This document shows positions 1 to 53,581 of a stretch of DNA of 64,000 nucleotides, piece by piece. The stretch comes from Thuidium tamariscinum. Lineage: Eukaryota; Streptophyta; Bryopsida; Hypnales; Thuidiaceae. Under the pieces are notes generated by a model that ran no database searches, had not been told where the DNA came from, and worked only from the letters and a program-made list of their open reading frames with translations. How positions within the stretch are numbered: the stretch's first letter is position 1; every line of letters starts with the position of its first letter. Both the position numbers and the translations under genes were made by a program. The stretch lies in contig OX344749.2 of assembly GCA_947034885.2 (NCBI GenBank), positions 35,149,182 to 35,213,181 on the forward strand, read 5' to 3'.

Positions 1-2952
1 ATAATATTTAAAAAACAATTTTGAAGCGAAACAAAGCCACTTCAAGAATGAAGAATAAAACCCAGAAAAATTACAACCGGATAGATTTTCACTTTGAAGG
101 AAAATTTCTGGTTGGAATAGGACAATGGCGGCAATGCAACCGGGAGAAAAAAATATTTTAGGAAATTGGCCAGCAAATTCTACAACCTCCCGGCACACTT
201 CCGCCCAATTTTTGAAAAAACCGAGATGGATGAAGTTCTAATGGAAATCTACCATTTGGCTCACAGAACTCCCCTGACTGTGCTCTAAGGTCCAAAAATA
301 GGTACAGGGACGGAAATGGGTGTTTCTCCCTTACAAAAATAATTTTGCCAACATATGGCGGAGCCTCTTGTCTCATGATACCCTGGCTGGGTATCAATAA
401 CCTTCTTCTGTACATAGGCTGTGCAGCCTAATTAAATGATCCTCAAATAATTTCTCAGTCCCTCCAGCTCATGTGTTAGCTAGGAAAATCCATAATCAGA
501 TCTCTGTATTAGCCAGGAGAAGAGTAATTGGGGTCCATTCAGTTGATATCAACTGACCAATCCAATCAACATCAACCCATTAGAGGATCAGGCATTCAGC
601 CATGTTGAATACCTCAGCCCCATTGGGGTCCCCAAAATTATTTCATCAATTATTTCATCAATCTAAGTTCATGTAACTAAGCATGTCTGGTTATTAAGTT
701 AGAGTTTGCATTGATACACACTTTATATTGTGTAAAATGAAAAACTATCAAAATTAAGTTGTAATGAATGGTCAAATATTTGATGAAACTAAACTGTAAC
801 AAGGCAGTTAGTTTTACTCATTGTACCCAATCATTGTCCAATGGTTTATCATTATGAGTTTTTTGGAAAAAATATCCTTCTTGTATTGATTTGTATCTAT
901 TTATTCATAGAGAAAACAAGAATAATTAATAGGGCAAAAATAATATTCCAAGTAGTAACAAGGACTATATCATTGTGTGTGTGGACAAGAAAAAGAGTGA
1001 AAACAAATGGATAAAGACTAAGAACAACTAAGAACTTGTTGAGATAAACATAGAACTATATCTAGAGGTTTAACTCTTTACATACATACATACATAATTA
1101 TATGAATATCATAGCAAAGTACTACTTAGCCCACTAATGTAAGGGATATAAGAATCTCACTATTTTAGCCATTGTGTAACTTATCACTTCCTCAAGATAT
1201 AGTTCTAATTATCTTTCTTGTGACTACCATTTAAAATAGGAATCTAAAAAAAAAGAAGGGAGGAAGAGGTCGCCCCTATCCGAGGTTATCCCATACCCCT
1301 AGTTGCCCATCTTTGTTAGATCCACATGCGCCCCAAAATATAACATGTGGATGCCACATGGCATGCAAATGGCATTATTTATTGCGTGGTAAATTTTTTG
1401 AAAGTCAAAGGTAAATTTGACTTTTGAGGACGTCATGGGGGTGTATTAGATGTTGCATGATGTCTTGATGTCACGATGTTGTGCTGTCTGACAGAACAAC
1501 CCTACTTTAAAGGGTTAGTTTTATACATTAGTGATTTAGTGATTAGCAGAGAACAATCTCAAAAGTAGAATTTTTGGCTAGACATTAAATCCTACTATGG
1601 AAGGGGGCCATGAAGATAAATTTTTCGGTTCTCTGGGTAAAAGTGAAAAGAAGACCCTTACATTAGAGAAAATTTCAGCCTAAGTGTGGGCCTAATGGAT
1701 GAATGAGAATGAGCAATTACGGGTCATTGCAAGAAACATAGGTCATGTTTGTTATCACAATCGAAACGACTTTCTTCTTTTGTAGTATAACTTTTGAATC
1801 CAAACTAAGCTTTGACCTTGAAATTTTTTTAAGTATCTAGCGGTTGGTGCTTGCTATGCTATGCAATCATCATTAGAATTTAGAAAATTTATATCATGAA
1901 AGCTCAAATGTCACAAAAGCACTAAATCATAGAAGCGCAAAGAAACATTAAGCCAAGAAAACCAATGGATTTGCTACCTCTATTATATCTTCTTGGGGAT
2001 CCTCTTTAATATCACCTTCATTGCAACAACTACATTATTTTTATAATATCACTCTTCGTAAAAGTGATATTACAAAAGTGATTGCAAATTGCTACTTCTT
2101 TTCTGTAATATTACATTGGGTGACAATAAGATTTTCATGTATTCATGATTGAAAACATTTTTATAAAATATTTAGTAAAATTATTTTAAGGACTTATTGA
2201 AATCAATATCATGCATTCTATTCAAATATATCAATTTTTTTTATTAATATGTGATACAATGAATGCATAGTATACCAAGCACCAGCCCCTAGTATTAATG
2301 GTAGCATTTGTGGCATTAGAGAGGGAGTTATGATTTTAGTAGTATGATAACTAACTTCATGCTAAAGGATTCTATATTTTTTCCAAATTCTAGAAAAAAC
2401 TTTTTGTATTTAAGAATTAATTCTTTCCTCTTGTCACAAATTGGTTTAATAAGGATTTACTACTGATGTTCATAGTAATAAAAAAGAATGCTTAAATTAA
2501 ATTGATATTTTGGTGGTGTGTTCCTCCACTTAGTAGACTTATAAATATGGTTTGGAATCCAATTTTTAGTTATTTTTGGATGATGTACAAGCTATATAAT
2601 ATAGCTCAGTGGCACGTACATTTACAAATTTTAATTTTTAAATACTTTGACTCTAATTTCTTTTGGATGAAAGTGACCACAAGGAGCTTTGGAAAAATGG
2701 ACATAATTAAAAATAAATAAAAAAGTCATTTTTTATTTTTTATGAATAAAAATTAGATCCTTGTATTTTTTGAAGGAAACTATAGTCTTGTATTCCTAAA
2801 TATTGTTGCATAGATGTAATAGTGTATAGTACTCCCACATCCAACTTTAATCCTACATTTGTCTACTTGTCAAACTTTTAAAATGATGTAATATGTAAGA
2901 TAATGTCATTCAATGGCCACATTAACTTCTAACTCCAATATAGGTGTAAAAA

Positions 2953-3196
2953 CATAGTACATTGGCAGTTTGCTGATAGTTATTGTAATACTGGTAGTAC
3001 TACGCATCAAAAGCATAGTACATTAGTAGTTTGTTGATAGTTATTGTAGTATTGGCAGTACTACAAGTCAAAAGTATAGTACATTGGCAGTTTGTTGATA
3101 GTTACCGTAGTACTAGTAGTACTACGAGTCAAAAGCATAGTACATTGGCAGTTTGCTGATTGTACTTGTAGTACTAGCAATACTATGTGTCAAAAA
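2953..3196. repeat. 61-bp minisatellite, four units
   Basis: Four consecutive units start at 2953, 3014, 3075 and 3136, each 61 bases and each beginning with (C/T)ATAGTACATT, followed by a GTAGTACTAC-like core. Units differ from each other at several positions. The same array is present in the right copy of block D at 10642-10885, so it predates the duplication. Confidence 0.9.
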
Positions 3197-3730
3197 TGCA
3201 ATCCCGTTAAAACGGTACGAAAAGTGAACAGTGTTTTTTACAGCCAATTGGCTACCCTTACAATAAAAATCAACCCAAATTGGCAGTCAGAGAATCTGTA
3301 AGGTGAGCAGTTAGCTCATGTGCCCTCATTAGATTTCCGATCAAAATTTTATTTTTGAAAAAAAAGTGATTTTTGAAAATTTTCTGTGTAATGGCACATT
3401 CATTGAAACTGAAATAGCCCTTTACAAAGTCCAGATTTTTTGTAATGATTGTGGCTATGTCTAGAGTATGTTTGTAAACCCCGTCAAGCTAATTTGGCAT
3501 TTGGGAGTCTTTGATTGCAAATATGAATTCAGAATTTACAAAAAAAAAATTTGCAAAAAATAAAAAATATCAACGTTTATCCCTGGGGTAAATCCAGCCT
3601 GGTGGCCTATCACTTTGTGGGATGGGTTAACCCTCAAACGTCTCAATCCTTTTTTGAATTTTTGCTCATTTTCGCTTACAGCTTTGTACAAATATTTCAT
3701 TTTCCAGAAGTTAATGAATTTGATCATTAA

Positions 3731-4691
3731 CCCCTCACCGCCCAAGAGGACTAAAAGTGTCCATCAAGTCAGACTCAAAGTGCTGTAACTTTTGCATCCA
3801 ATGTCCAAATTCATTGAAACTTGTTGGAAAAGTTGCGCATTCTAATCTAGTTCTTATAGAACAAATTTCAAATCAATATAAGACATATTGAGTTTTTGAG
3901 AGCCATTCAAAGTTCATAGGTTCATTTGGATGTAGCACACTGCATTGTGACTGCTGCAACTTTGGGGGATTGTATCTTTTTCATAAAATCTTTTTTTTTG
4001 ATAAAATTTGTTGTTATTTGTTCCCCTCAAGGTCTAGTTATTGTGCTAAAATTTTCATGCCAATCCAAGTTGTTTTGAATGTTTGGGAGCAATTCGAAGT
4101 TCAAAATCTAGACATTTTTGCATTTCAGTCAACTTTGGCGGCTCATAACTTCTTCATACACGATTGCTTTTCAATAATATTTGTTGGAAAAGTTTCACTT
4201 ACTAATCTATTTTGTGTGGCTAAAATTTCAGATCCATCGAAGACGTTTTGAGTGACTGAGAAGCATTTTGGTAGAAGGAGCTTCAGCCACAATTGTGATT
4301 TTTTCATCTTTTTTCACTGTTTTTTGACATTTCAAATCCATTTTTCAAACAAAATGAGTGATTTTTATGAATTTTTTTTCCACCTCAGTGTTTATATTAT
4401 GGTTTTCAATCACTTTGTAGTTTAATGTTTTTTCATTTGAGTTGGTTTAGAAATCCAATTTCACCTCCAAATGTGTTTTTAAGAAAATTTCAGCACCTTT
4501 TTTGAACACTAAAACATTATAATCTTTCAATTTATACGGTCAAATGACCCCAAATTTGTTCCACACCATCTAAAACATGCACACTACAAAATTGTACGGT
4601 TGAGATCTTCATACCTTACTCTAATTTTGACTTTTCAGACTTGCAAAGGCAAGCAGTTTTTAAGCATGGTTGGACCTTGGGCGGTGAGGGG
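3731..4691. mobile_element. TTAA-flanked non-autonomous element (piggyBac-like MITE), 961 bp
   Basis: The ends are a perfect 16-base inverted repeat: CCCCTCACCGCCCAAG at 3731-3746 and its reverse complement at 4676-4691. Both ends abut TTAA (3727-3730 and 4692-4695). The homologous place in the duplicate block, near 11392, reads straight through with one TTAA, which gives an exact empty site. TTAA duplication with termini beginning in CCC is the hallmark of the piggyBac superfamily; that assignment is an inference because no transposase is present. The inside holds about three diverged units of roughly 180 bases (about 3783-4280) and no coding region. Confidence 0.85.
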
Positions 4692-6145
4692 TTAAGGAAG
4701 GTTGTCTTCTCTAGATTCAAGTGTTATATTTGATAAATGAGAAGTTAATTGGATGAAACAGTGCCTTGAAGGCCTCTGTTCATCGTCCAGAATATGGACG
4801 TTGGAGAGCTTCAGGGTTAACGTTCCGCGATATGAAGTGTGAGGTATAAGATAAAAAAGATAGTTGAAAAGCTTGCAAATGAAGGCTAAATTGTATTTAA
4901 TTGTACGTTAATTCAGAAGTCCCAACTGACCCTCGTTGAGTGAATCTTTTAATCAATTGGAGCGAAAAACGGTGCACCACTGAGCCAATGAGCCTTCGCC
5001 ACATCAGGAGCGCGCACATGAACGAGACTTCCAAAAAATCCTGCTGAAAATTTGATCTCCCTGGCTTGCGGTACGAAAATGATGCATGTAATGTAACAAT
5101 GAAAGCTTTCACACAATTCAATGAAAGTAAACGTTATGTCTGAAACTGGGAGTGGAAGGCACCACAAACCCAGCTCACATGTTGAATCCCCTGCATACGT
5201 GTGTTGCTTCTCTGTCCAGCCCCTGGGGCTTGGATCGGCTGCTGTTTCTGAGTTTTTTTCTTTGCAAAGAATTGCATTTAATTTGTTTCATGAAAGAAGA
5301 AGAAGAAAAGAATCCCCTACATGACAAATGTTCACAGTGCGTACATGGTCCCACATATGCATGCACTCGCACAAGTGGTTCAGTTGTACATCAGTTTCAA
5401 ATGCCTTTCATGGAATTCAAGCAAGGAAAATGAACTCCTGAATGTACTTGATTGCTTAATGCTAATTTCGACTTTCTCTGAGAAGGCAAGCACTCGATCA
5501 AGTTACACGTGGGTAGCTTTCATCGAAATAAATCACCAAGCCTTTGCAAGCTGGGTAGTTCAATGAATTCTGGGCTTAAGTAATTAACATCAATTTCGTT
5601 AGTTTGACGATATTATGTTCACAAAGGATTTCAGGTCACAAACTAGCACAGGCCGCGTGGCTGAACCGGACCAATGGCCAATTTAACGGAATTGACACTG
5701 CCTATTTTCTTACACCAGTCTGTGTCAGTTTCAGGTACCGTTAATATACGAAGACCACTGCTTTATTGAAATGGACGAAACTCACGACCTGTGCTACAAC
5801 ATGACACCACACAGTAACCAAGAGCAGTGACATCAATTTTCTGCCCTTACGGCTGGGGAGCATGCAAACGTCGCGATCAGGATCCACCCAAAAACGGAAA
5901 CAGCTCTGCACTCTAGCTGTCACCGTCCGGCCTCATCCGATTATTTGCAGTCACAACTGAAGCATCGATCTGCTAACATACATATAAGCTCACACGTTCA
6001 AACAACTAGACCCATACAAGTATATATCATCTAGATGTCAAATCTAGATACACCAATACAGATATTTATATCGACATTATTTTGTACATCTAGACCTGAT
6101 ATCTAGACACCTTGCTGATATAATCTAAACATAAAGCGGAATCAA

Positions 6146-6753
6146 TATGTAATTTCTATAGATTTCCAAAGTGTTGGCTCCCTAGACCACTGGAACTGTC
6201 CTGTAGGTGTACCTTTAACTGAACACTTGCTGAAACCAGCTGTCAGTGAATGAAAACTATACATGTGTCTTACAACTGTGTCAATGAATTAGAATTAAAC
6301 ATTTGTCGAACACTTTAATGAATGTTTATGGACAGATATAGTGGTACTCTAGGGTCCAAGAATAGGTCTAGGGACGGAAATGGGTGTTTCTCCTTCAGAA
6401 TAGTAGTTACGGTGAAAACACCCAAAATTGTCCAAATAAGGAATTCAGCATAGTTGAAGGCATCTTTTTCTAAAAATGATATTTTTCTAGTATTAGTGAG
6501 TGAAAACCGTGAATATTAAAAAATAAAAATAATTTTTTTGAATTAGTATGTAATTTCTATAAATTTTCAAAGTGTTGGCTCCCTAAATCACTGGAACCGT
6601 CCTATGGGTGTACCTTTAATTGAACTCTGCTGAAATCAGTTGTCAGTGAATGCAAATTATACATGTGTCTTACAACTGCGTCAGCAAATTAGAATTAAAC
6701 ATTTGTCGGATACTTTAATGAATGCTTATAAACAGATTTAGTGATACTCTAAG
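6146..6753. repeat. Two 207-bp direct repeats, 401-bp period
   Basis: The segments 6146-6353 and 6547-6753 are direct repeats with clear but imperfect identity. Both start TATGTAATTTCTATA and end near a TACTCTA motif. Between them, 6354-6400 matches part of block D near 288-330, so the spacer between the two large duplicates is itself built of repeat fragments. No gene is seen here. Confidence 0.8.
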
Positions 6754-7378
6754 GCAACGAACGGGGAGTACCAGCATTTAGTAGCATTGTAGTTGGTTGA
6801 TTTTGAAGATTTCCAATTGAGATAGAAAAGTTTCGGCAGAAGTTCCGGATGAAAAAAAAGATTTTTGGAAATGGACCGGATAGTAAAATAAAATGTCAGC
6901 TTTTTGCCGTTTATTCTAGGAACATGTTGGAAAATTACTGATTCAAAATACATGATTCCGGTTCTTAGCCTGCTAGGATTATACTTTGAAGGAAATTTTT
7001 TATATAGTAAACTAGGTCCTAAGGTACATACAAATCTATCATATTACATAGACTGATAGACAGTTAGACACATAGTATTCTACCTTAGGAATTTACAGTC
7101 ATTACAGACCATAACTTCAATAATTAGTACTTCACTAACTCACTAATTAAGACTGTAAGAGTATAAGACATATACCAAGACATCCAGGCACTAAGGCACT
7201 TAGCTATCCCAGACCCAGACTTCCAACAAGATAGTATTCAGAGAGTCACAGTCAGCAGGGGACACCATTGTCTTGACTACTTTTTATAACTTGTATGCAT
7301 TTGTTGCCTTCTTTGTTGCACATTTTTTTCATTATCTTCAATGGCATTGTGTATGTATGTTGGTTGGTATGTTACTCA

Positions 7379-7545
7379 CCCCATTTTTTGGTCTTAAGGT
7401 GTTTTGATTCTTGTAAATGTTGGCTTGTTCTCACTAATCTCCCCATTTTTTTTGTCTCATGCTGTTTGATTCTTGTAAATGTTGGCTTGTTCTCACTAAT
7501 TTGCCCATTTTTTTGTCTCATGTTGTTTGATTCTTGTAAATGTGA
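7379..7545. repeat. 62-bp tandem repeat, about 2.7 units
   Basis: Units starting near 7379, 7441 and 7503 each carry CCCATTTTTT, then TGATTCTTGTAAATG. The first two also carry GGCTTGTTCTCACTAAT; the third is partial. A similar layout, CCCATTTTTTTT about every 50 bases, recurs in the intron of the hAT-like gene at 59.3-59.5 kb. Confidence 0.8.
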
Positions 7546-7632
7546 ATGTTGAGGGCATGTCGTACTAACCAACCTCTTGAAAATGTATGGACCCTCTTTT
7601 GGATTTGTGCATTTTCGGAAGGCTGAATCTTT

Positions 7633-7678
7633 GGCCCTAAGTTGGTAGGGGCAATGCCAGGTTCAAATCCTGCGAGGG
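7633..7678 (+). other. tRNA-like fragment (box A and box B), possible SINE head
   Basis: The sequence has a box-A-like GGCCCTAAGTTGGTAG and a box-B-like GGTTCAAATCC at 7660-7670, the latter inside a T-arm in which four of five stem pairs form. The boxes are too close for an intact tRNA because the anticodon arm is missing. It could be a decayed tRNA or the head of a tRNA-derived SINE. It lies exactly where the right D copy starts to match the window's first base, so the left copy may have carried the same sequence just outside the window. Confidence 0.35.
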
Positions 7679-7679
7679 A

Positions 7680-10600
7680 TAATATTTAAAAAACAATTTT
7701 GAAGTGAAACAAAGCCACTTCAAGAATGAAGAATAATACCCAGAAAAATTACAACCAGATAGATTTTTACTTTGAAGGAAAATTTCTGGTTGGAATAGGA
7801 CAATGGTGGCAATGCAACTGGGAGAAAAAAATATTTTAGGAAATTGGTCGGCCAATTCTACAACCTCCCGGCACACTTCCGTCCAATTTTTGAAAAAAGT
7901 GAGATGGATGAAGTTCTAACGGAAATCTACCATTTGGCTCACAAAACTCCCTGGACTGTGCTCTAAGGTCCAAAAATAGGTACAGGGACGGAAATGGATG
8001 TTTCTCCCTTACAAAAATAACTTTGCCAGCATATGGCGGCTCTTGTCTCATGATACCCTGGGTATCAATAACCTTCTGTACATAGGCTGCGCAGCCTAGT
8101 TAAATGATCCTCAAATAATTTCTCAGTCCCTCCAACTCATGTGTTAGCCGGCTAGGAAAATCCATAATCAGATCTCTGTATTAGCCAGGAGAAGAGTAAT
8201 TGGGGTCCATTCAGTTGATATCAACTGACTAATCCAATCAACACCCTGAGTGATCAACCCATTAAGTTAGAGGATCCGGCATTCAGCCATGTTGAATACC
8301 TCAGCCCCATTGGGGTCCCCAAAACAATTTCTTCTGAAATTATTTCCTCAATCTGAGTTCATGTAAACTAAGCATGTCTGGGCATTCGAGTTTGCATATA
8401 CACACTTTATATTGTGTAAAATGAAAAACTATCAAAATTAAGTTGTAATGAACGGTCAAGTATTTGATGAAACTAAATTGTAATAAAGCAGTTAGTTTTA
8501 CTCATTGTACCCAATCATTGTCCAATGGTTTATCATTATGAGTTTTTTAGAAAAAATATCCTTATTGTATTAATTTGTGTCTATTTATTCATAGAGAAAA
8601 CAAGAATAATTAATAGGGCAAAAATAATATTCCAAGTAGTAACAAGGACTATATCACTGCGTGTGTGGACAAGAAAAAGAGTGAAAACAAATGGATAAAG
8701 ACTAAGAACAACTAAGAACTTGTTGAGATAAACATAGAACTATGTCTAGAGGTTTAACTCTTTACATACATACATACATACATAATTATACGAATATTAT
8801 AGCAAAGTACTACTTAGCCCACTCATGTAAGGGATATAAGAATCTCACTATTTTAGCCATTGTGTAACTTACCACTTCCTCAAGATATAGTTCTAATTAT
8901 CTTTCTTGTGACTACCATTTAAAATAGGAATCTAAAAAAAAAAAGGGAGGAAGAGGTCGCCCCTATCCGAGGTTGCCCCATACCCCTAGTTGCCCATCTT
9001 TGTTAGATCCACATGCACCCCAAAATATAACATGTGGATGCCACATGGCATGCAAATGGCATTATTTATTGCATGGTAAATTTTTTGAAAGTCAAAGATA
9101 AATTTGACTTTTGAGGACGTCGTGGGGGTGTATTGGATGTTGCATGATGTCTTGATGTCACGATGTTGTGCTGTCTGACAGAACAACCCTACTTTAAAGG
9201 GTTAGTTTTATACATTAGTGATTTAGTGATTAGCAGAGAACAATCTCAAAAGTAGAATTTTTGGCTAGACATTAAATCCTACTATAGAAAGGGGCCATGA
9301 AGATAAATTTTTCGGTTCTCTGGGTAAAAGTGAAAAGAAGACCCTTACATTAGAGAAAATTTCAGCCTAAGTGTGGGCCTAATGGATGAATGAGAATGAG
9401 CAATTACAGGTCATTGCAAGAAACATAGGTCATGTTTGTTATCACAATCGAAACGACTTTCTTCTTTTGTAGTATAACTTTTGAATCCAAACTAAGCTTT
9501 GACCTTGAAATTTTTTTAAGATACTAGCGTTTGGTGCTTACTATGCTATGCAATCATCATTAGAATTTAGAAAATTTATATCATGAAAGCTCAAATGTTA
9601 CAAAAGCACTAAATCATAGAAGCGCAAAGAAACATTAAGCCAAGAAAACCAATGGATTTGCTACCTCTATTATATCTTCTTGGGGATCCTCTTTAATATT
9701 ACCTTCATTGCAACAACTACATTATTTTTATAATATCACTCTTCGTAAAAGTGATATTACAAAAGTGATTGCAAATTGCTACTTCTTTTCTGTAATATTA
9801 CATTGGGTGACAATAAGATTTTCATGTATTCATGATTGAAAACATTCTTATAAAATACTTAAAATAATTATTTTAATGATTTATTGAAATCAATATCATG
9901 AATTCTATTCAAATATATCAATTTTTTTATTAATATGTGATACAATGAATGCATAGTATACCAAGCACCAGCCCCTAGTATTAATGGTAGCATTTGTGGC
10001 ATTAGAGAGGGAGTTATGATTTTAGTAGTATGATAACTAACTTCATGTTGAAGGGTTCTATATTTTTTCCAAATTCTAGAAAAAACTTTTTGTATTTAAG
10101 AATTAATTCTTTCCTTTTGTCACAAATTGGTTTAATAAGGATTTACTACCGACGTTTGTAGTAATAAAAAAGAATGCTTAAATTAAATTGATATTTTGGT
10201 GGTGTGTTCCTCCACTTAGTAGACTTATAAATATGGTTTGGAATCCAATTTTTGGTTATTTTTGGATGATGTACATGCTATATAATATAGCTCAATGGCA
10301 CGTACATTTACAAATTCTAATTTAAATACTTTGACTCTAATTTTTTTTGGATGCCGAAAGTGACCACAAGGAGCTTTGGAAAAATGGACATAATTAAAAA
10401 TAAATAAATAAGTCATTTTTTTTGTTTTTTATGAATAAAAATTAGATCCTTGTATTTTTTGAAGGAAACTGTAGTCTTGTATTCCTAAATATTGTTGCAT
10501 AGATGTAATAGTGTATAGTACTCCCACATCCAACTTTAATCCTACATTTGTCTACTTGTCAAACTTTTAAAATGATGTAATATGTAAGATAATGTCATTC

Positions 10601-12833
10601 AATGGCCACATTAACTTCTAACTCCAATATAGGTGTAAAAACATAGTACATTGGCAGTTTGCTGATAGTTATTGTAATACTGGTAGTACTACGCATCAAA
10701 AGCATAGTACATTAGTAGTTTGTTGATAGTTATTGTAGTATTGGCAGTACTACAAGTCAAAAGTATAGTACATTGGCACTTTGTTGATAGTTACCGTAGT
10801 ACTGGTAGTACTACGAGTCAAAAGCATAGTACATTGGCAGTTTGCTGATTGTACTTGTAGTACTAGCAATACTATGTGTCAAAAATGCAATCCCGTTAAA
10901 ACGGTACGAAAAGTGAACAATGTTTTTTACAGCCAATTGGCTACCCTTACAATAAAAATCAACCCAAATTGGCAGTCAGAGAATCTGTAAGGTGAGTAGT
11001 CCAATCAGAATTTTATTTTTGAAAAGAAAGTGATTTTTGAAAATTTTCTGTGTAATGGCACATTCATTGAAACTGAAATAGCCCTTTACAAAGTCCAGAT
11101 TTTTTGTAATGATTGTGGCTATGTCTAGAGTATGTTTGTAAACCCCGTCAAGCTAATTTGGCATTTGGGAGTCTTTGATTGCAAATATGAATTCAGAATT
11201 TACAAAAAATAAATTTCGAAAAAAATAAAAATATCAGCGTTTATCCCTAGGGTAAATCCAGCTTGGTGGCCTATCACTTTGTGGGATGGGTTAACCCTCA
11301 AACATCTCAATCCTTTTTTGAATTTTTGCTCATTTTCGCTTATAGCTTTGTACAAATATTTCATTTTCCAGAAGTTAATGAATTTGGTCATTAAGGAAGG
11401 TTGTCTTCTCTAGATTCAAGTGTTACATTTGATAAATGAGAAGTTAATTGGATGAAACAGTGCCTTGAAGACCTCTGTTCATCGTCCTGAATATGGACGT
11501 CGGAGCGCTTCAGGGTTAACATTCCGCGATATGAAGTGTGAGGTACAAGATAAAAAAGAAGATTGAAAAGCTTGCAAATGAAGGCTAAATTGTATTTAAT
11601 TGTACTTTAATTCAGAAGTCCCAACTGACCCTCGTTGAGTGAATCTTTTAATCGATTGGAGCGAAAAAACGGTGCACCACTGAGCCAATGAGCCTTCGCC
11701 ACATCGGGAGCGTGCACATGAACAAGACTTCAAAAAATCTGCTGAAAATTTAGTCTCACTGGCTTGTGGTACGAAAATGATGCATGTAATGTAACAATGA
11801 AAGCTAGCTTTCACACAATTCAATGAAAGTAAACATTAACTTATGTCTGAAACTGGGAGTGGAAGGCACCACAAACCCAGCTCACATGTTGAATCCCCTG
11901 CATACGTGTGTTGCTTCTCTGTCCAGCCCCTGGGGCTTGGTGTGGCTGCTGTTTCTGAGTTTTTTTCTTTGCAAAGAATTTCATTTGTTTCATAAAAGAA
12001 GAAGAAGAAAAGAATCCCCTAGGTGACAAATGTCCACAGTGCGTACATGGTCCCACATATGCATGCACTCGCACATGTGGTTCAGTTGTACATCAGTTTC
12101 AAATGCCTTTCATGGAATTCAAGCAAGGAAAATGTACTCCTGAATGTACTTGATTGCTTAATGCTAATTTCGACTTTCTCTGAGAAGGCAAGCACTCGAT
12201 CAAGTTACATGTGGGTAGCTTTCATCGAAGTAAATCACCACGCCTTTGCAAGCTGGATAGTTCAATGAATTCCGGGCTTAAGTAATTAACATCAATTTCG
12301 TTAGTTTGACGCTATTATGTTCACAAAGGATTTCAGGTCACAAACTAGCACAGGCCGCGTGGCTAAACCGGACCAATGGCCGATTTAACGGAATTGACAC
12401 TGCCTATTTTCTTACACCAGTCTGTGTCAGTTTCACCGTTAATATACGAAGACCACTGCTTTATTGAAATGGACGAAACTCACGACCGCCTGTGCTACAA
12501 CATGACACCACACAGTAACCAAGAGCAGTGACATCAATTTTCTGCCCTTACGGCTGGGGAGCATGCAAACGTCGCGATCAGGATCCACCCAAAAACGGAA
12601 ACAGCTCTGCACTCTAGCTGTCACCGTCCGGCCTCATCCGATTATTTGCAGTCACAACTGAAGCATCGATCTGCTAACATACATATAAGCTCACACGTTC
12701 AAACAACTAGACACATACAAGTATATATCATCTAGATGTCAAATCTAGATACACCAATACAGATATTTATATCGACATTATTCTGTACATCTAGACCTGA
12801 TATCTCGACACCTTGCTGATATAATCTAAACAC
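7680..12833. repeat. Right copy of the large direct duplication (block D)
   Basis: This block matches 1-6135. It lacks the TTAA element, showing an empty TTAA near 11392, and has smaller indels (for example about 25 bases lost near 11000). Homology ends near 12833, where this copy runs into the decayed 3' end of the secreted-protein gene instead of the sequence found after 6135. Its match to the window begins at the very first base, so the true unit is probably longer than what is visible. I see no supported gene inside. Confidence 0.9.
10642..10885. repeat. 61-bp minisatellite, copy in right D block
   Basis: The same four-unit array as at 2953-3196, offset by 7689 bases and nearly identical in sequence. 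Confidence 0.9.
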
Positions 12834-24803: not shown

Positions 24804-27800
24804 AGGTAGGTACACCAAAAATCGCGCGGTGCCTGAAGGCGCCAGCTAGAAAGAGCCCTGAAATCCTTTTACATTTGGTGGAACTTGTCAGATTGCAGTA
24901 TTTGGCAGTTACTGACAGAAAAAGGGTATTTACTCATTAGTAATCTCATTTTAAAGTACATCATGAAATTGGTTTGAATGTTGGCTGCACAATTACCAGG
25001 GACTGAGGAGAAATGAACATGTGTTAAAAGAAGCTAAATTTCTGATGCATCCTGGGGATTAAGCAAAAATGATAGGACAATTTAAATGGTTTATAAAATT
25101 CCATACAAGACTAAAATGGTACACCTTCTTAATTATGGGAAGACCCTACACGGAAGTGTAGCCGGCGGTTTACCTCACCCAAGTAAATGTACACGTTATA
25201 GACAAGATATTGAAGAAATTATCTCAGGAATGGAAAGAAGACGAAGTTCTTCATTCGTGAACACAATCTGCAAGAGAGAGTGACGATTGCAGAGCTTAGA
25301 ATCAAGCATTTTGTCATTTCAGTGCATTTGTGGAAGTCGCTTCATTGTAGAAAGAAGGCAGAAAGAGCGTAGCTAGAGATGGCTGGTGAGAAGCAGAATT
25401 TGCATATGGAGAAGAGAGGCAGCAGTGACGACGGTAGTGTCCAAATTCTAGGTAGACGTATCATTCCCCGTCCAAAAGCTGTAGTGGGCGGAGTAGATTT
25501 AGTGGCATCAATTCGTGACAGAGAAGCTGCAGACAAATTTCATGACTTGCGGGTTCTGTGGTATAAAGATGGCGCACCAAGTGTACATGGACCTAGCTTC
25601 AGGAGTTTCAAAGATGGAGAACGCAAGGAAGTTTTACCCAAGCTTGAGCGACCTGATGTGCCGTACAACGCAGTGGAACATGCCAAGAAGAGTAGAGAAG
25701 GTATGGGCAGTCTGAACAATGATGCTGACTTCACAGTGGGTGATGGTGAGAAGTCAAAGAGGTACCTCCGACCACGACAGAAGAAACAGGAGCATCCCCA
25801 AGTGCAGCTGTGGCAGTTACAAAATGGCCAGAAGATGGACCAACCAAAACCCCACAGAAAAGTTGCTATCCACGAAGGAGCTCATACGCTGGACGGTGCT
25901 GAAGAGAATAGAGAGAGGCCAGCAGAGGCAGGTATGGAAAACATCCCTAAAGTAGCTAAGAAGGACTTGAAAAAAAATGGTAACTGGACTGATGCTCAGC
26001 TGAAGGCAGCTCTCAAAGTTATTGACAAAGGAGCAGGGATTTCTGCTGCTGCTAATTACTACCACATTCCTAGAACAAGTTTGAGAGGGCAGTTGCATGG
26101 TAGGACACTGTCTAGGAAGAGGGGAGGTCATACAGTGCTCTCAAGTACAAAAGAGGAGGAGCTCGTGCAATATTTATTGGACATGGCTGATAGAGGATTT
26201 CCAGTGACTTGACTGTCTCTACGAATTAAGGTAGCACTGCTGACACAAACACGGTGCACAGCTTTCAAGAATGACATCCCAGATAACGGGTGGGTAAGGT
26301 GGCTTCAAAAGAGGCATCCTGAAGTATCTCTAAGAAAAGCACAACCCCTATCTGTTGCAAGAGCGAAAGAACTATGTCCTAAGAATGTGCGGACACTCTA
26401 CAGTAATTTACAGGTTCTCTATGAGAGGAATGCTTACAGTGACAGCCACATTTGGAACGCGGACGAGAGTGGCGCACAAGCTGGCCAGAGTGGGGGGGCT
26501 AAGGTCTTAACAAGAACAGGTGTGAGAAATGTGGACATCATCACACCTAACGAACGTGAACATGTGACAGCACTGTCTTGCATAAATGCTGCAGGGGACA
26601 ACATCCCTAACTACTACATTTTTAAAGGGAAACAACACCTACAAGCACATATAGCAAAATGTGAAGACGGAGCTCGCATGGGGATGCAGGAGAATGCTTG
26701 GATGACTGCATTTTTATTTGACAAATGGCTGGATCATTTCGTGGCATATCTGGAAAGTCATGGAGGTGTATCATCTACTAATCGACATTTACTTATTGTA
26801 GATGGACACAACTCTCATGTTACTATACAGGTCATAGAGAAATGTAGATCTCGAGGGATTGATCTGGTACACTACCTTCTCACACATCTCATGAATTGCA
26901 ACCTCTGGATGTGAGTTGCTTTAAAACTTTAAAACTAGCCTTCCGCATCTATCGAGACATCTGGTGTCAGCGAAATAGAGGTGGAAAAGTGACTAAGCGT
27001 ATTCTAGGCGAATGGGTGTGACTTTCACTTAGAAGGGCTTTGACCTGCAATAACATCAAAAGCGGTTTTCGCACTACAGAGATTTTTCCTTAAAATAGTC
27101 ATGCCATGGACTCTAAGTTCGGACCTTCTAAGCTCTTGGTGGACATGCAAGATGATGACGATGAGGAGCAGCAATACAGGGAGATGAAGGAAAACGTTCT
27201 ACAAGAGCCAGACCTTCCTACAGTTGATGTTACATCTGTGGACTTCGAAGCTGATGGGAATGCTTCCCAGAATGACACAATCACTGAAGACAGTGAATGC
27301 AAGTATACCGAAAAACACAACGGCAGTGATGTCGCAAGCAGAGAGCCACCGGCAGAGGATGAGATGCAGCACTATCCCAACAGAAGATGCAACCATACAT
27401 TGACTACTCTGTCTCGTTATTGCTTACAGATGACAGTCACTTGGAGAAAGTTAAGGAACTCCAAGAGAAGCGGGAAGCTGCTGCGAAGGAGAAAGAAGCT
27501 AAGCGATTGGAGATGGAGGCCAAGCGGAAAGAGAGGGATGAACTGAAGAAACGGAAGGCACATGCGCTGCAAGTTAAAAACGACGAACGGGCTAATGAAA
27601 AACGTCTGAAGACCTATTACGACCAGCAAAAGAAGCTTGGGTGGGGAAACAAACTTCAAGAATTAGTACACAGCGGGCGCACTCTACCCTCTTCCATGTA
27701 CCATGCTCCATACTGCAGCAATGTTTCACCACTGTGCATCTGGAATCAGAGGGTGGCAGCTTTGAGACTAAAATTCAAGAGAGAAGGTAAGAATCCTAGA

Positions 27801-34503: not shown

Positions 34504-34998
34504 GATACATTACGTAAATGTTAAATGAAAGTGTGGGCCCAAAACTCATTGAATACCTCTAAGATGATGTAGAATTGACTTGGCATAGTCCTAGACCACT
34601 TGCACTTGGGGGCGACCGTAGAATATGTGAAATGGAGTTTCAAAATTTCATTTCCAGAAAATCATCAAATGAATTGAATTTACCATTTTTTAAAGAAGGG
34701 CAAAATATCATACCGGGGTGAAATGACCCGTGGCTTGCTCATCCCCTAGGGAAAACAGTGAAATTTTTTGAATTTTTTGCTTATGGTGAAATTTGCAAAT
34801 TTAAATTCATGTTTCCAATTAAAAGTCTCAAATTAACTACACAAGGTGCACCAAAAAAAAATTTCAAGTACAAAATAGGGTGTCATTTTATTTACCTGCA
34901 TCCTTGGAATGACTTAGAATGATTTAGGGAGGATGAGCAAAGAATTAGCTCATCTGATCAAATTTCATCAAATGTCGATGAAATTGGCAGCACATTAA

Positions 34999-35805
34999 CC
35001 TCTAAGTGCCTAAGTCTTGGCAAGTGTATTTTTCTTATAAAAAAAGCATTGGCTTCTAGTAATCTTCAATGAAGCAAATTTTTCTTTTTTAAGAATCCAA
35101 CCACATAGATGTTTTAAGAGCTTGCATATTAGTCTATAAACCAATTTTAAGTGCAAAATTGCAAAGGAGTTGTGAGATTATAACAAGAAAAAAAAAAAAA
35201 TTCTATTTTTAGTATGTTGCCTCTCCCTACAATGTTTTAGAAATTTGTATATTAAATATTTTTGGGATTGATGGTGACATGAATAAATACAAAGTGTTAG
35301 CACACTAAAATGTACTTTCAAAAAACTTAATTTCACTTGAAAAGCTATCAAATTTATTGCACAATTTACCTTGCAATTGTGGTAATACAAATTTTTTTTA
35401 ATAACTAAAAATCGCAAAAAACTTCAAATCAACACTTTCATGTTGAAATTTTCAATGGTGAAAATCATAAAAATACTAACTCTTTCTACTAGGAACATTT
35501 TCAAAATATTTGAATAAGTACAATTTCTTAGATCTCAAATCAAGTGAAATTGGCAAGTTGTGCATTAGAGCGCAAAATGAACTAAAATTGGCAAGCTTTA
35601 CTCTCCACTAATGTTTACATACCTTTGAAGACCCTTAAATAATCATATATTTACTTTTTTTCTGTGAAAAATGAAAGTTTTCAACAATTAACACTAAAAA
35701 CTGCTCAAAAAAAATTTCAAAATAGTGAAAGAAAATTAATTGCCCATTCAAATTTGAGCTGAAATTTTCTGTATGACCATATATGGTTGCTCAAGCAATT
35801 AGGGG
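34999..35805. mobile_element. TTAA-flanked element, 807 bp, diverged
   Basis: The left end CCTCTAAGTGCCTAAG and right end complement CCCCTAATTGCTTGAG match at most positions. TTAA flanks both ends (34995-34998 and 35806-35809). The termini fit a CCCCTAAAYGCCCAAG consensus shared with the elements at 3731 and 52681. It has no coding capacity. Confidence 0.65.
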
Positions 35806-36111
35806 TTAAGTTATACTTGTTTCACAAAGTTGGATCAATAGGGTAAAATTTGCATTTTGTAATGATAAATAAACAAAAACAAAAAACCTTGTTTTATACC
35901 ATGTTTAGGGTATGTTCATCTTAAGATATCCTCGTTAATTTGGGGCCTTTTATTGCAAATATGACTTCCAAATCTACAAATTTTATCATATGTGAATATA
36001 AAAAATTTGAGTGTTTTTTCTTAAAGTAAATCCAACCTCATAATTCTACTTCATGGTTGGAAATGGGAGTTAGTGCCAATTTTGAGTGCATAGTGAGGCA
36101 GTGACTGCCTC

Positions 36112-49422: not shown

Positions 49423-51938
49423 CTAATGACTCTCTTCGTCCCTAGCAGCCATAAGCCGTAACCTCTCATCAGCAGCAGCACTGCCCGTGCGGGCTCTTTC
49501 CTCCATTAGCAAGGACTGAAGATCACTCCCATTTGCAAGGCTATTGAACTCCACGGACTTGGATGGCATGGATGGATATCGCCTCTGACACAGGGTCATC
49601 AACCTCTTGATGGATTGCAGATATTTCCTTGTGGTCTCATCGTTCATGATATGCGCAACACTGTTGGTGTAAATCTTCTCACGAGCTGAACGCTCGTGGA
49701 TGCCCACCATAGTGACTCCAATGGGCCACGGTGCATTTCCGATAGCCAGTTTGATGTATTGATCCATTGCTGTCAAATAATCTCGCTCCAAGCACTTATT
49801 GACAACGATCATAAGCGCAATTCGAATATCATCAGGTAGCATCTGTAACAAAACCAACTCCGGATGTTTAAAATCTCCAGATGAGAAGCTCCCACTAGAC
49901 GTGCTCTCACAGATTTTTGCCATTCCAAAACCTTACAACATGATTCATAGCAAGACAACATTATTCTCTACCTCAGGTATTGGACCTACTCTAGTACAGA
50001 TATCTTGACTACTCTAAATAAGTAAAGGCATTCAACCCGATGGTCGTAGACGTTCTAGCAGCGGTGGCCGGGAATGCAGGAGTGATATAACACAAAGACT
50101 ACAGTTACTATATATGTATCATTTTACTTGCAGAAACGCAATTATGAACTGGCCATGACATAATGGATTACGGCATAGTGGACGTGACCCAGCCTAAGTA
50201 AACAAAGAGAGGACGCACAAATGATGAAATGGTTCTTACTTTTTTGCGGCACATCTTAAAAAGAGGCTTCAGATATCGAGCACACTGCTTAAAAGTAGCC
50301 ACGCTCGACTTGCCGCGTCCAGTTCTTCGCTCAGCTTCAGGCCGATTTGCTAGCTCCTCCTCCCACTCCAGAAGCAACCGCTTAAAGAACACCAAAATCT
50401 TATCTTCATCCGAAAGTTCATCAAAGTTGGCTCTCAACCTCTGCAGTGTTCAACGTGATAATTTAATGTAAATGTCTGGAGACGATATAATCAAACAACC
50501 AGCTCGTTACACTCAAAACCCTGCATAAAGAAAGCTTACGAAACTCCATATTTCAAAATGAGACTCCCCAGCGGAAAAGCAAAACCCAAATCACTCCTCT
50601 GGACTACGGGTTGACATGCCGCGACAGTGCACTTCCCCATCTCCATACATTAAACCCTAAAATAACACCCACAATAACCCCACGGACTGTTTGCAAGAGA
50701 ATTCCTGAATACTGTAATAAAGTAAGTTCCATTCTTGCGCACTTTATCAAAACAGTAATCGATTGCAAAATTGCCATAATCTCTATTGTATAGCAACTTC
50801 ACTCTTTAGATAAGTGAAAATAACTATGGGCGGTAAAAGCGTGGTGAAGAGAAAGCACATCTTTTCAGTGAAAATTAGAGACTCATTAATAAATGCATCA
50901 TAAACCGCAAAATATTCAAGATTCATGAACCAAATTTCTGTGGAAGGTTTAAGACTCAGTTGCAAGAAGTTTCAATCATGTAGCGTAGATTTGTATTTGC
51001 AAAGACAATTAAAACTAAGGGTCTGTGCGGTCAACAACATGATTTCCTTGATAATTCGAGAATTCGAGTTTTCAAGCACACAGAACTCCATACTTCAAAA
51101 TGAGATTCCCAGCCAGAAAAGCAAAACCTAAGTTCACATCCTTTGCTTAAGTAAGAAGTTTTAATTCATTCACCACAATTTTGATTCTGTTAAAACATTT
51201 AAACCTTGAGATCAATGGCATTTGACTATACTCATTAGAGATTTGCTAGCTTACGAAACTCAAAACTTCAAAATGAAATTCACCAGCAGAAAATCAAACC
51301 CTAAATTCCTCCTTTGCTCTACAATTGATACATACCTTCACATCCTTGTCATTTTCAATCCCAGAAGAGAACCCTCCCTCGCCAGTAATATTCTCCTCCC
51401 CACCGCCACCACCGTCCTTGTCGCCATCAACGCCCTCCTTCTCTTTGTTCTTCTCTTTCCGCGGCTCCAATCGCCCGTGCTTCTGGAGCATCCGAAGCTC
51501 CGCCATATCCGCGAGAAAATCGTTCCGCTGGCCTTCCATGAGCTCGCTGTCGATCTCACCCGTCTTCATGAGTGCTTTCAATCTCGCCGCCCGCGCGTCG
51601 TCATCTTCCCCGAATAGCGTGATTGGTTGCTTCAAGTACCGCAGCCTCTTAATCACTTCCTCCTTTGACAAACCAATTTCAATCGCCTCTACTTCCTTAC
51701 CGCTCTCCTTGGATTGCGACGCAAGCTCGGGCTGTGAAGCATTAGCTTCGGGTCCCGGATCCTGCGAACCCGGGGCGCCCTTCCGCTTGGCCTTCTCGAG
51801 CAACACCTTCTTCTCTTCGTCTTTCCGACGCTCCAACTCCCGCTGGTCGATCTCCCCCCGGCGAACGAACTTGCGCCCTCCAAAGTCCTCTTTCACAGCT
51901 TTCCTCTTTCGTTCCAGCTCGGCCTTCAGCGCATCCAT
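49423..51938 (-). CDS. PRP18: Pre-mRNA-splicing factor PRP18, three exons
   Basis: PRP18 associates with the U5 snRNP and acts at the second catalytic step of splicing in the nucleus. Three exons, all phase 0, give 407 residues: 51336-51938 (ends GTGAAG before GTATGT), 50240-50440 (opens after CTGCAG, ends before GTAAGA) and 49423-49842 (opens after TTACAG). I start at the ATG at 51936-51938, giving MDALKAELERKRK as in plant homologues. Residues about 88-123 are the SFM/PRP4-like motif (SKEEVIKRLRYLKQPITLFG). The Prp18 domain starts about residue 250; its conserved loop, GNAPWPIGVTMVGIHERS, is at 302-319. The plant-type tail EFNSLANGSDLQSLL follows. Length and order fit the family. A basic Lys/Glu-rich linker lies at 150-180. 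No damage is seen. Intron 1 is unusual in carrying three copies of a 65-base repeat. Confidence 0.95.
50534..51319. repeat. Three dispersed 65-bp repeats in PRP18 intron 1
   Basis: Copies at about 50534-50600, 51075-51147 and 51248-51319 share ACTCCATAYTTCAAAATGA, then CAGC.GAAAAGCAAAACC, then a TCCTTTGC-like tail. The third copy lies just inside the intron's 5' splice site. They look like duplications of the start of the intron. Confidence 0.75.
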
Positions 51939-52243
51939 CTCTGTCAAAATTACCCAAAACTACGAGTTCTGCGCACTATGGAAAGGCTCTGAAGCGACAG
52001 CGTCATTACCCACAAGCTATTCTACACAAGCGTGATATCGCGATGTAATGAGGCTCCCTGTGTTTCAATTCGCAAGCACCCACGCTGGCTGTGGGGGAAC
52101 CCTAAATTGCTTCCGTGACGTTCCATCGACCTGCTCCCGAGACGTTCCCATGACGTTCTCATTGATTGCTGAGCTAGCCACGTCATCTGATTACATTGGC
52201 ATGAACACAAGCAATTTTTCTTCAAAATCCAACATCCCAAATA

Positions 52244-52680: not shown

Positions 52681-53581
52681 CTCCTAAATGCCCAAGGCAT
52701 CAAAACTTGGTGTTTGCAAAACTTTGAAACTTAATCAAGTTGCTATTTTTAGTGCTTTTACATTTTTTGAAAACTTTTTTTAAAGTCTACTTTTAGCATC
52801 AAAAATCCAGTTTTGAAAATGATTGATTATAATTTTTCTATTCAAGATTTTGTGTAAGGATGTCCATTGCAATCACTATAAGAAACCTCTGTCTTTGGTG
52901 ACGAGCCTTAATTTTTTATAACGGATTCTAGGTGATGTCGATGCTGACAACTCAAAAACTTTATGTTAACAAAAATGTCCAATGTAACATCAATGTTAAC
53001 ATAAAAACATTGGACTATCAACATTCATGTTACATTGGACATTTTTGTTGACATAAATTTTTTGGGTTGTAAGCATTGACATCACCTAAAATCCGTCATA
53101 AAAAATTAGGGCTTGTCACCCAAAACATGGGTTTCTTATAGTGAATCTTGGCTTATTGTAGTATTGAAGGTTGTTGGAAATAAGCCCCAAACACAATAAA
53201 TCTTAGAGAAAAAAATACTTTAGAAAATCATTTTAAGAAATTGTAGAAAAGATTTTAAGAAGTTATAGATTGATTGGGATTATACATGATAGGTCCTATA
53301 ACCTCATAATTTTTTGGTGACCAAATTTTTAGATTTGACATGTGAAAAGAGGATCAAAAGACTTTGCAATTTAAACACCCTCATGATGAAATATTATAAT
53401 CTTTCAATTTTCTAAGTAACATTGTTACATTTTCTTTTTCTAGATGATCTCTAACATGTCTAGTTTGAATTTGTAGAGTTATATTTCTAAAAAAGTTGAT
53501 AAAGCACATCAAAATGTTGGCTTTTTGTTCAAATTAGAGTAAATTCCTAGAAGCTCCAAAGAGGCCTTAAGCATTTAGGGG
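52681..53581. mobile_element. TTAA-flanked element, 901 bp
   Basis: The left end CTCCTAAATGCCCAAGGC and right end complement CCCCTAAATGCTTAAGGC agree at 15 of 18 positions. TTAA flanks both (52677-52680 and 53582-53585). It hosts the CACTA-like MITE at 52874-53143. It belongs with the elements at 3731 and 34999. No coding region is seen. Confidence 0.75.
52874..53143. mobile_element. CACTA-like MITE nested in a TTAA element, 270 bp
   Basis: It starts CACTATAAGAAACCTCTGTC and ends ...GGGTTTCTTATAGTG. The 3-base flank AAT is present on both sides (52871-52873 and 53144-53146), the size expected for CACTA transposition. The interior is largely palindromic (for example AAAAATGTCCAATGTAAC and its complement). 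It is younger than its host element. Confidence 0.85.

Follow-up and report, generated by a model that had tools for sequence, protein, structure and literature searches.

The 961-bp element in the left of two duplicated blocks of the window (the whole 64,000-bp stretch of Thuidium tamariscinum DNA analysed here, C1:35149182-35213181) is very probably a MITE of the piggyBac superfamily, moved in trans by a lineage with nearly identical ends and inserted at a TTAA after the duplication. Its TTAA flanks, the family to which it belongs, its relative age and the existence of an element with matching ends around a piggyBac frame were established by the comparisons below, and it represents a new MITE family of this superfamily in a plant. 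In the mechanism proposed, a piggyBac transposase would be supplied in trans by the element lineage with nearly identical ends, and this end-matched lineage would have done the moving: a source copy would have been cut out, seamlessly as with moth piggyBac, and inserted after the duplication at a TTAA within an older 229-bp TTAA element of the left block, the TTAA being duplicated through the insertion of the 961-bp element.

A self-BLAST of the window matched the blocks in two halves, 1-3730 with 7679-11394 and 4692-6131 with 11391-12832, whose overlap in the right block was exactly the TTAA. The 20-nt arms 3727-3746 and 4676-4695, i.e., the 16-base inverted repeats plus the TTAAs, were 100% complementary. 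Both comparisons bore out the preliminary description of a 961-bp element with perfect 16-base ends and TTAA on both sides, coordinates included, and the self-BLAST likewise placed a single TTAA at the same site of the right block (11391-11394). The 16-base end CCCCTCACCGCCCAAG, which starts with CCC, had two exact matches in the window, and six when up to 3 mismatches were allowed, versus 0.04 expected from 100 shuffles. Without its TTAAs the element had a GC content of 33.8%, and it contained diverged direct repeats at a spacing of 173-187. No substantial ORF was present in it, the longest overlapping one having 93 codons (ATG, GTG or TTG starts), and no ORF of 150 codons occurred within window positions 1-12832.

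Table 1 Features of the duplicated blocks and the nested elements (window coordinates)
Feature	Position	Strand	Basis
Duplicated block, left copy; runs to the window edge	1..6131		self-BLAST
Outer TTAA-bounded element, left-block copy; 229 bp, not counting the 961-bp element that interrupts it	3627..4820		
Left TTAA target site duplication of the 961-bp element	3727..3730		
Non-autonomous piggyBac-type element (MITE-like, subfamily A), 961 bp	3731..4691	+	self-BLAST, arm comparison, copy alignment
Left terminal inverted repeat CCCCTCACCGCCCAAG	3731..3746	+	
Right terminal inverted repeat, exactly complementary to the left one	4676..4691	-	
Right TTAA target site duplication of the 961-bp element	4692..4695		
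Duplicated block, right copy	7679..12832		self-BLAST
Outer 229-bp TTAA-bounded element, right-block copy, uninterrupted	11291..11519		
Single TTAA (empty site), right block	11391..11394		

Four other stretches of the window were noted. Positions 34995-35809 form an 815-bp TTAA-ended stretch whose own ends are 16/20 alike, perhaps an older piggyBac-type MITE, and the 272 bp at 52873-53144 are MITE-like, with an 85% match to their own reverse complement. A fragment of a DDE_1 transposase domain lies at 26387-26914. The minus strand at 49423-51947 carries a Prp18 domain and a PRP4-like motif, probably a splicing-factor gene.

The 961-bp element is one of a large non-coding family. When the assembly (363 Mb in 19 contigs) was searched with it, all 40 scored copies of 3,404 candidates were full length, at 96-100% identity. 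We surveyed the flanks of 28 of these 40, the window copy among them: 27 were bounded by TTAA on both sides, and the 28th by TTAA on one side and TAAA on the other. The adjoining 16 bases on either side varied between copies, and the first T and last A of the tetranucleotide were invariant in all 28, so that the target is the whole TTAA. Further copies, which the preliminary description had proposed to seek with the element's end, proved abundant, the 20-base end TTAACCCCTCACCGCCCAAG matching the genome 1,036 times at up to 2 mismatches (510 forward, 526 reverse) and its reversed control not once. Among 100 end matches listed there were 34 facing pairs within 3 kb, 23 of them measuring 969 bp with TTAA at both ends. 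A second MITE subfamily (B) measured 969-991 bp in copies with both ends located; its best matches were 75.9-82.3% identical, some of them partial. Places where the end was followed by variant subterminal sequence numbered at least 39 in one listing and at least 4 in another; 29 of the 30 such loci that we read belonged to subfamily B. The remaining one (L062) was a non-coding 1,075-bp TTAA stretch with only its first 38 bp in common with the MITE, so similar ends serve different interiors.

The comparison of the blocks gives the order of events. The preliminary description had left both routes open, mobility after the duplication or precise excision since, which no longer holds. Left and right blocks showed 150 substitutions across 5,105 aligned bases (2.9%) and 24 gap events. 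A single base separated the window copy of the element from an unlinked one on another chromosome (L002), and the window copy had one private change among the 28 copies. Had it dated back to the split of the blocks, some 14 private changes would be expected (P of 1 or fewer about 1e-5), provided that substitution rates are alike in element and flank and that gene conversion played no part. It is quite improbable that the element predates the duplication and that the right-block copy was removed precisely by piggyBac-type excision. Such excision restores a single TTAA (PMC10905368) and would leave the right block as we see it, but the left copy is far too similar to L002 for that age, and a third block copy, C1:35091525-35091772, is also empty, so two independent losses would be needed. 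The single difference to L002 against 2.9% between the blocks and the empty third copy thus speak strongly for insertion after the duplication rather than for excision in the right block. Such an insertion accounts for the empty site, and no excision event came to light in these comparisons.

The insertion site lies within another repeat, the 229-bp outer element. We located this outer element in at least 42 places, one of them the right block, all spanning 226-248 bp and hence without the insert; the list (40 scored of 1,556 candidates) is biased towards uninterrupted copies, and the left block is absent from it. The match at C1:35091525-35091772 extended past the outer element into the block (95% there, 89% further right) and therefore represents a third block copy. 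In three other block copies the match started at query base 115, a few bases from the right TTAA of the outer element, which suggests that these also lack the 229-bp element. Further, partly fragmentary block copies with 80-91% identity form a local array at C1:34.7-35.16 Mb, and one lies on C5. The array offers a clean relative stratigraphy: the blocks are oldest, the 229-bp element came next, and the 961-bp element arrived last, in the left block alone.

The genome contains many piggyBac transposase genes. A profile search with PF13843 (DDE_Tnp_1_7) gave 658 candidates, and all 116 that were scored lay above the curated cut-off; the same profile had no match in 14 control genomes, a weak control. 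The LEAFY SAM domain profile (PF01698) had 6 matches above its cut-off in this genome and none in 14 control genomes, which points to the land-plant lineage, LEAFY not being known outside streptophytes. Two TTAA-bounded elements, L060 (5,090 bp) and L059 (5,946 bp), had facing ends around a piggyBac transposase, and the 5' end of L060 matched the MITE end at 19/20 positions. A search with the L060 transposase protein listed 119 places of 708 candidates. In the 30 transposase loci examined for ends, L031 and L037 matched the MITE at 14/16 bases beyond the TTAA, and the other TTAA sites of these loci (188, both strands) reached at most 9/16 with one exception, a 16/16 site beside L011 which marks where a neighbouring element ends.

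The element that ties the MITE to a transposase is C2:44857676-44862855, 5.18 kb long with TTAA at both ends and read at its ends. Its transposase frame (C2:44858804-44859826, minus strand) is 60% identical to the L060 transposase and is decayed, with one TGA and three TAG, i.e., four stops within a 340-residue match. An exact 20-base end (20/20) sits 3.0 kb upstream of this frame, and 37 bp at the 5' end of the element aligned with the MITE left end at 89%. On the other side, 1.1 kb downstream of the frame, the 3' end TTAACCCCTCACCACCCAAGGTCCGACAGCATG has 19/20 of the end sequence, and 27 bp there aligned with the MITE right end at 93%. A comparison of 185 listed ends of the 1,036 matches with 118 transposase places yielded two enclosing cases within 6 kb: this one, verified, and C2:45075061, with an unusual distance. 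The probability that two ends enclose a transposase within 6 kb by chance is low but not negligible, so it matters that the second end was predicted: TTAACCCCTCACCACCCAAGGTCCGACAGCATG turned up in the single 500-bp stretch predicted from L060. The frame is in the orientation that fits the ends. The element resembles the MITE in both its left and its right end, with the same polarity, and differs from it in carrying the decayed frame; the homology observed between the two is limited to 37 and 27 bp close to their ends. The conserved left/right polarity argues for descent rather than a mere common end motif. A genome search with the 3' subterminal sequence of this partner (up to 3 mismatches) found only the element itself, and neither end variants nor the comparison of listed ends with transposase places revealed an intact partner with exactly the MITE ends. 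An 8.8-kb end pair on C8, considered as a partner element, consists of two subfamily-B MITEs. The partner foreseen by the preliminary description was therefore found as an end-sharing element with a DDE_Tnp_1_7-type frame, though as a decayed copy and not an intact one.

The same observations bear on the superfamily. Sola3 elements also target TTAA, and TA and TTA are both contained in TTAA, so that Sola3, Tc1/mariner or PIF/Harbinger could be considered as the source; we regard this as very improbable, since the outer T and A are present in 28/28 copies and the end-matched element combines a piggyBac transposase frame with ends of conserved polarity. A Tc1/mariner or PIF/Harbinger MITE in particular (TA, or TTA/TAA duplication) would have free outer bases, and we rejected it on the invariance of these bases (28/28). 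The piggyBac assignment of the preliminary description accordingly holds, with TTAA at 27/28 copies and a piggyBac (DDE_Tnp_1_7-type) frame in the one end-sharing element found. An artefact of assembly, or a simple deletion from the right block, can be practically dismissed as the source of the block difference: DNA between two TTAAs is removable by chance deletion, but the boundaries are identical in 28 copies despite differing flanks, and in 41 other copies listed the outer element passes through the site without a break (in a list that favours uninterrupted copies).

A second piggyBac lineage of this genome appears young. Ten PF13843 matches shared one common score; adding L020 brings the copies to 11 (L020-L030), all of which have an open frame of 1,023 codons uninterrupted by stops. 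They differed from L020 by at most 2 bases over 3,984 compared, ended at TTAA and diverged beyond it; in a DNA search these 11 matched at 100% across 1,200 bp, and the closest relative after them reached 69%. The two copies read whole (L091+L024 on C2, L092+L027 on C8) were 5,096 bp long, TTAA-ended and without a single difference. The frame of the C2 copy, counted from the first ATG, has 1,009 codons. Its protein matched piggyBat (9c0f, 3e-27) and moth piggyBac (6x67, 1e-22), with three aspartates aligned with D268, D346 and D447 of 6x67, which are the catalytic residues of the moth enzyme (PMC2533014), and it ends in a C-terminal cysteine-rich stretch, a domain described for piggyBac relatives (PMC8086355). 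This transposase belongs to a lineage other than that of the MITE partner. The ends of the L024 family matched the MITE ends at 14/20 and 12/20 positions; because of this difference the family is probably not the partner of the MITE.

The near identity of the 11 copies points to very recent transposition, and this genome contains full piggyBac elements that look recently active. Internal TTAAs were scarce in the L024, L060 and L059 elements (1, 2 and 2 versus 11.6, 16.4 and 29.3 expected from dinucleotides, a depletion of about 8- to 15-fold); the whole window had 500 versus 663 expected on the same basis. Avoidance of self-insertion would explain this scarcity, and autointegration of piggyBac is the topic of PMC3952818. 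We consider it possible, at somewhat less than even chances, that the 5,096-bp autonomous family, with its open 1,009-residue frame and 11 nearly identical copies at different sites, constitutes a native, currently active, footprint-free plant piggyBac system, accompanied by large populations of piggyBac MITEs whose layers of insertion differ in age. If so, the plant would offer its own candidate for footprint-free excision, with open copies that multiplied recently and abundant MITEs, and a setting in which tolerance or silencing of such an element by a plant could be studied. Additions to the preliminary description are the partner, the direction of the event, the nesting of one element in another and the young autonomous family.

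The view that piggyBac is unusual in land plants, also held in that description, is only partly right. piggyBac-like elements are mentioned for plants in general (PMC8086355), PiggyBac is one of seven MITE superfamilies in angiosperms (PMC10004981), and a fern repeat table has a PiggyBac class (PMC6890710). For mosses, no paper on piggyBac was among the matches listed by a literature search that left most subscription journals outside; in one moss genome paper (PMC10619864) the matching word was "piggybacking".

Among known systems, moth piggyBac (IFP2 of Trichoplusia ni) shares with the MITE the TTAA target, its duplication and ends starting with CCC. Unlike moth piggyBac, the 961-bp element encodes nothing of note; the related full elements of this genome, like the moth element, encode a DDE_Tnp_1_7 transposase. 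A length of 961 bp is long for a MITE. The full elements here measure 5.1-5.9 kb versus 2,472 bp for moth piggyBac, and CCC ends with TTAA are described as the common case among piggyBac-like elements (PMC10813416). The piggyBac MITEs reported elsewhere, such as those of corals (PMC2872659), are likewise described as short, non-coding and assigned to piggyBac; the 961-bp element is set apart from them by its length and its diverged internal direct repeats.
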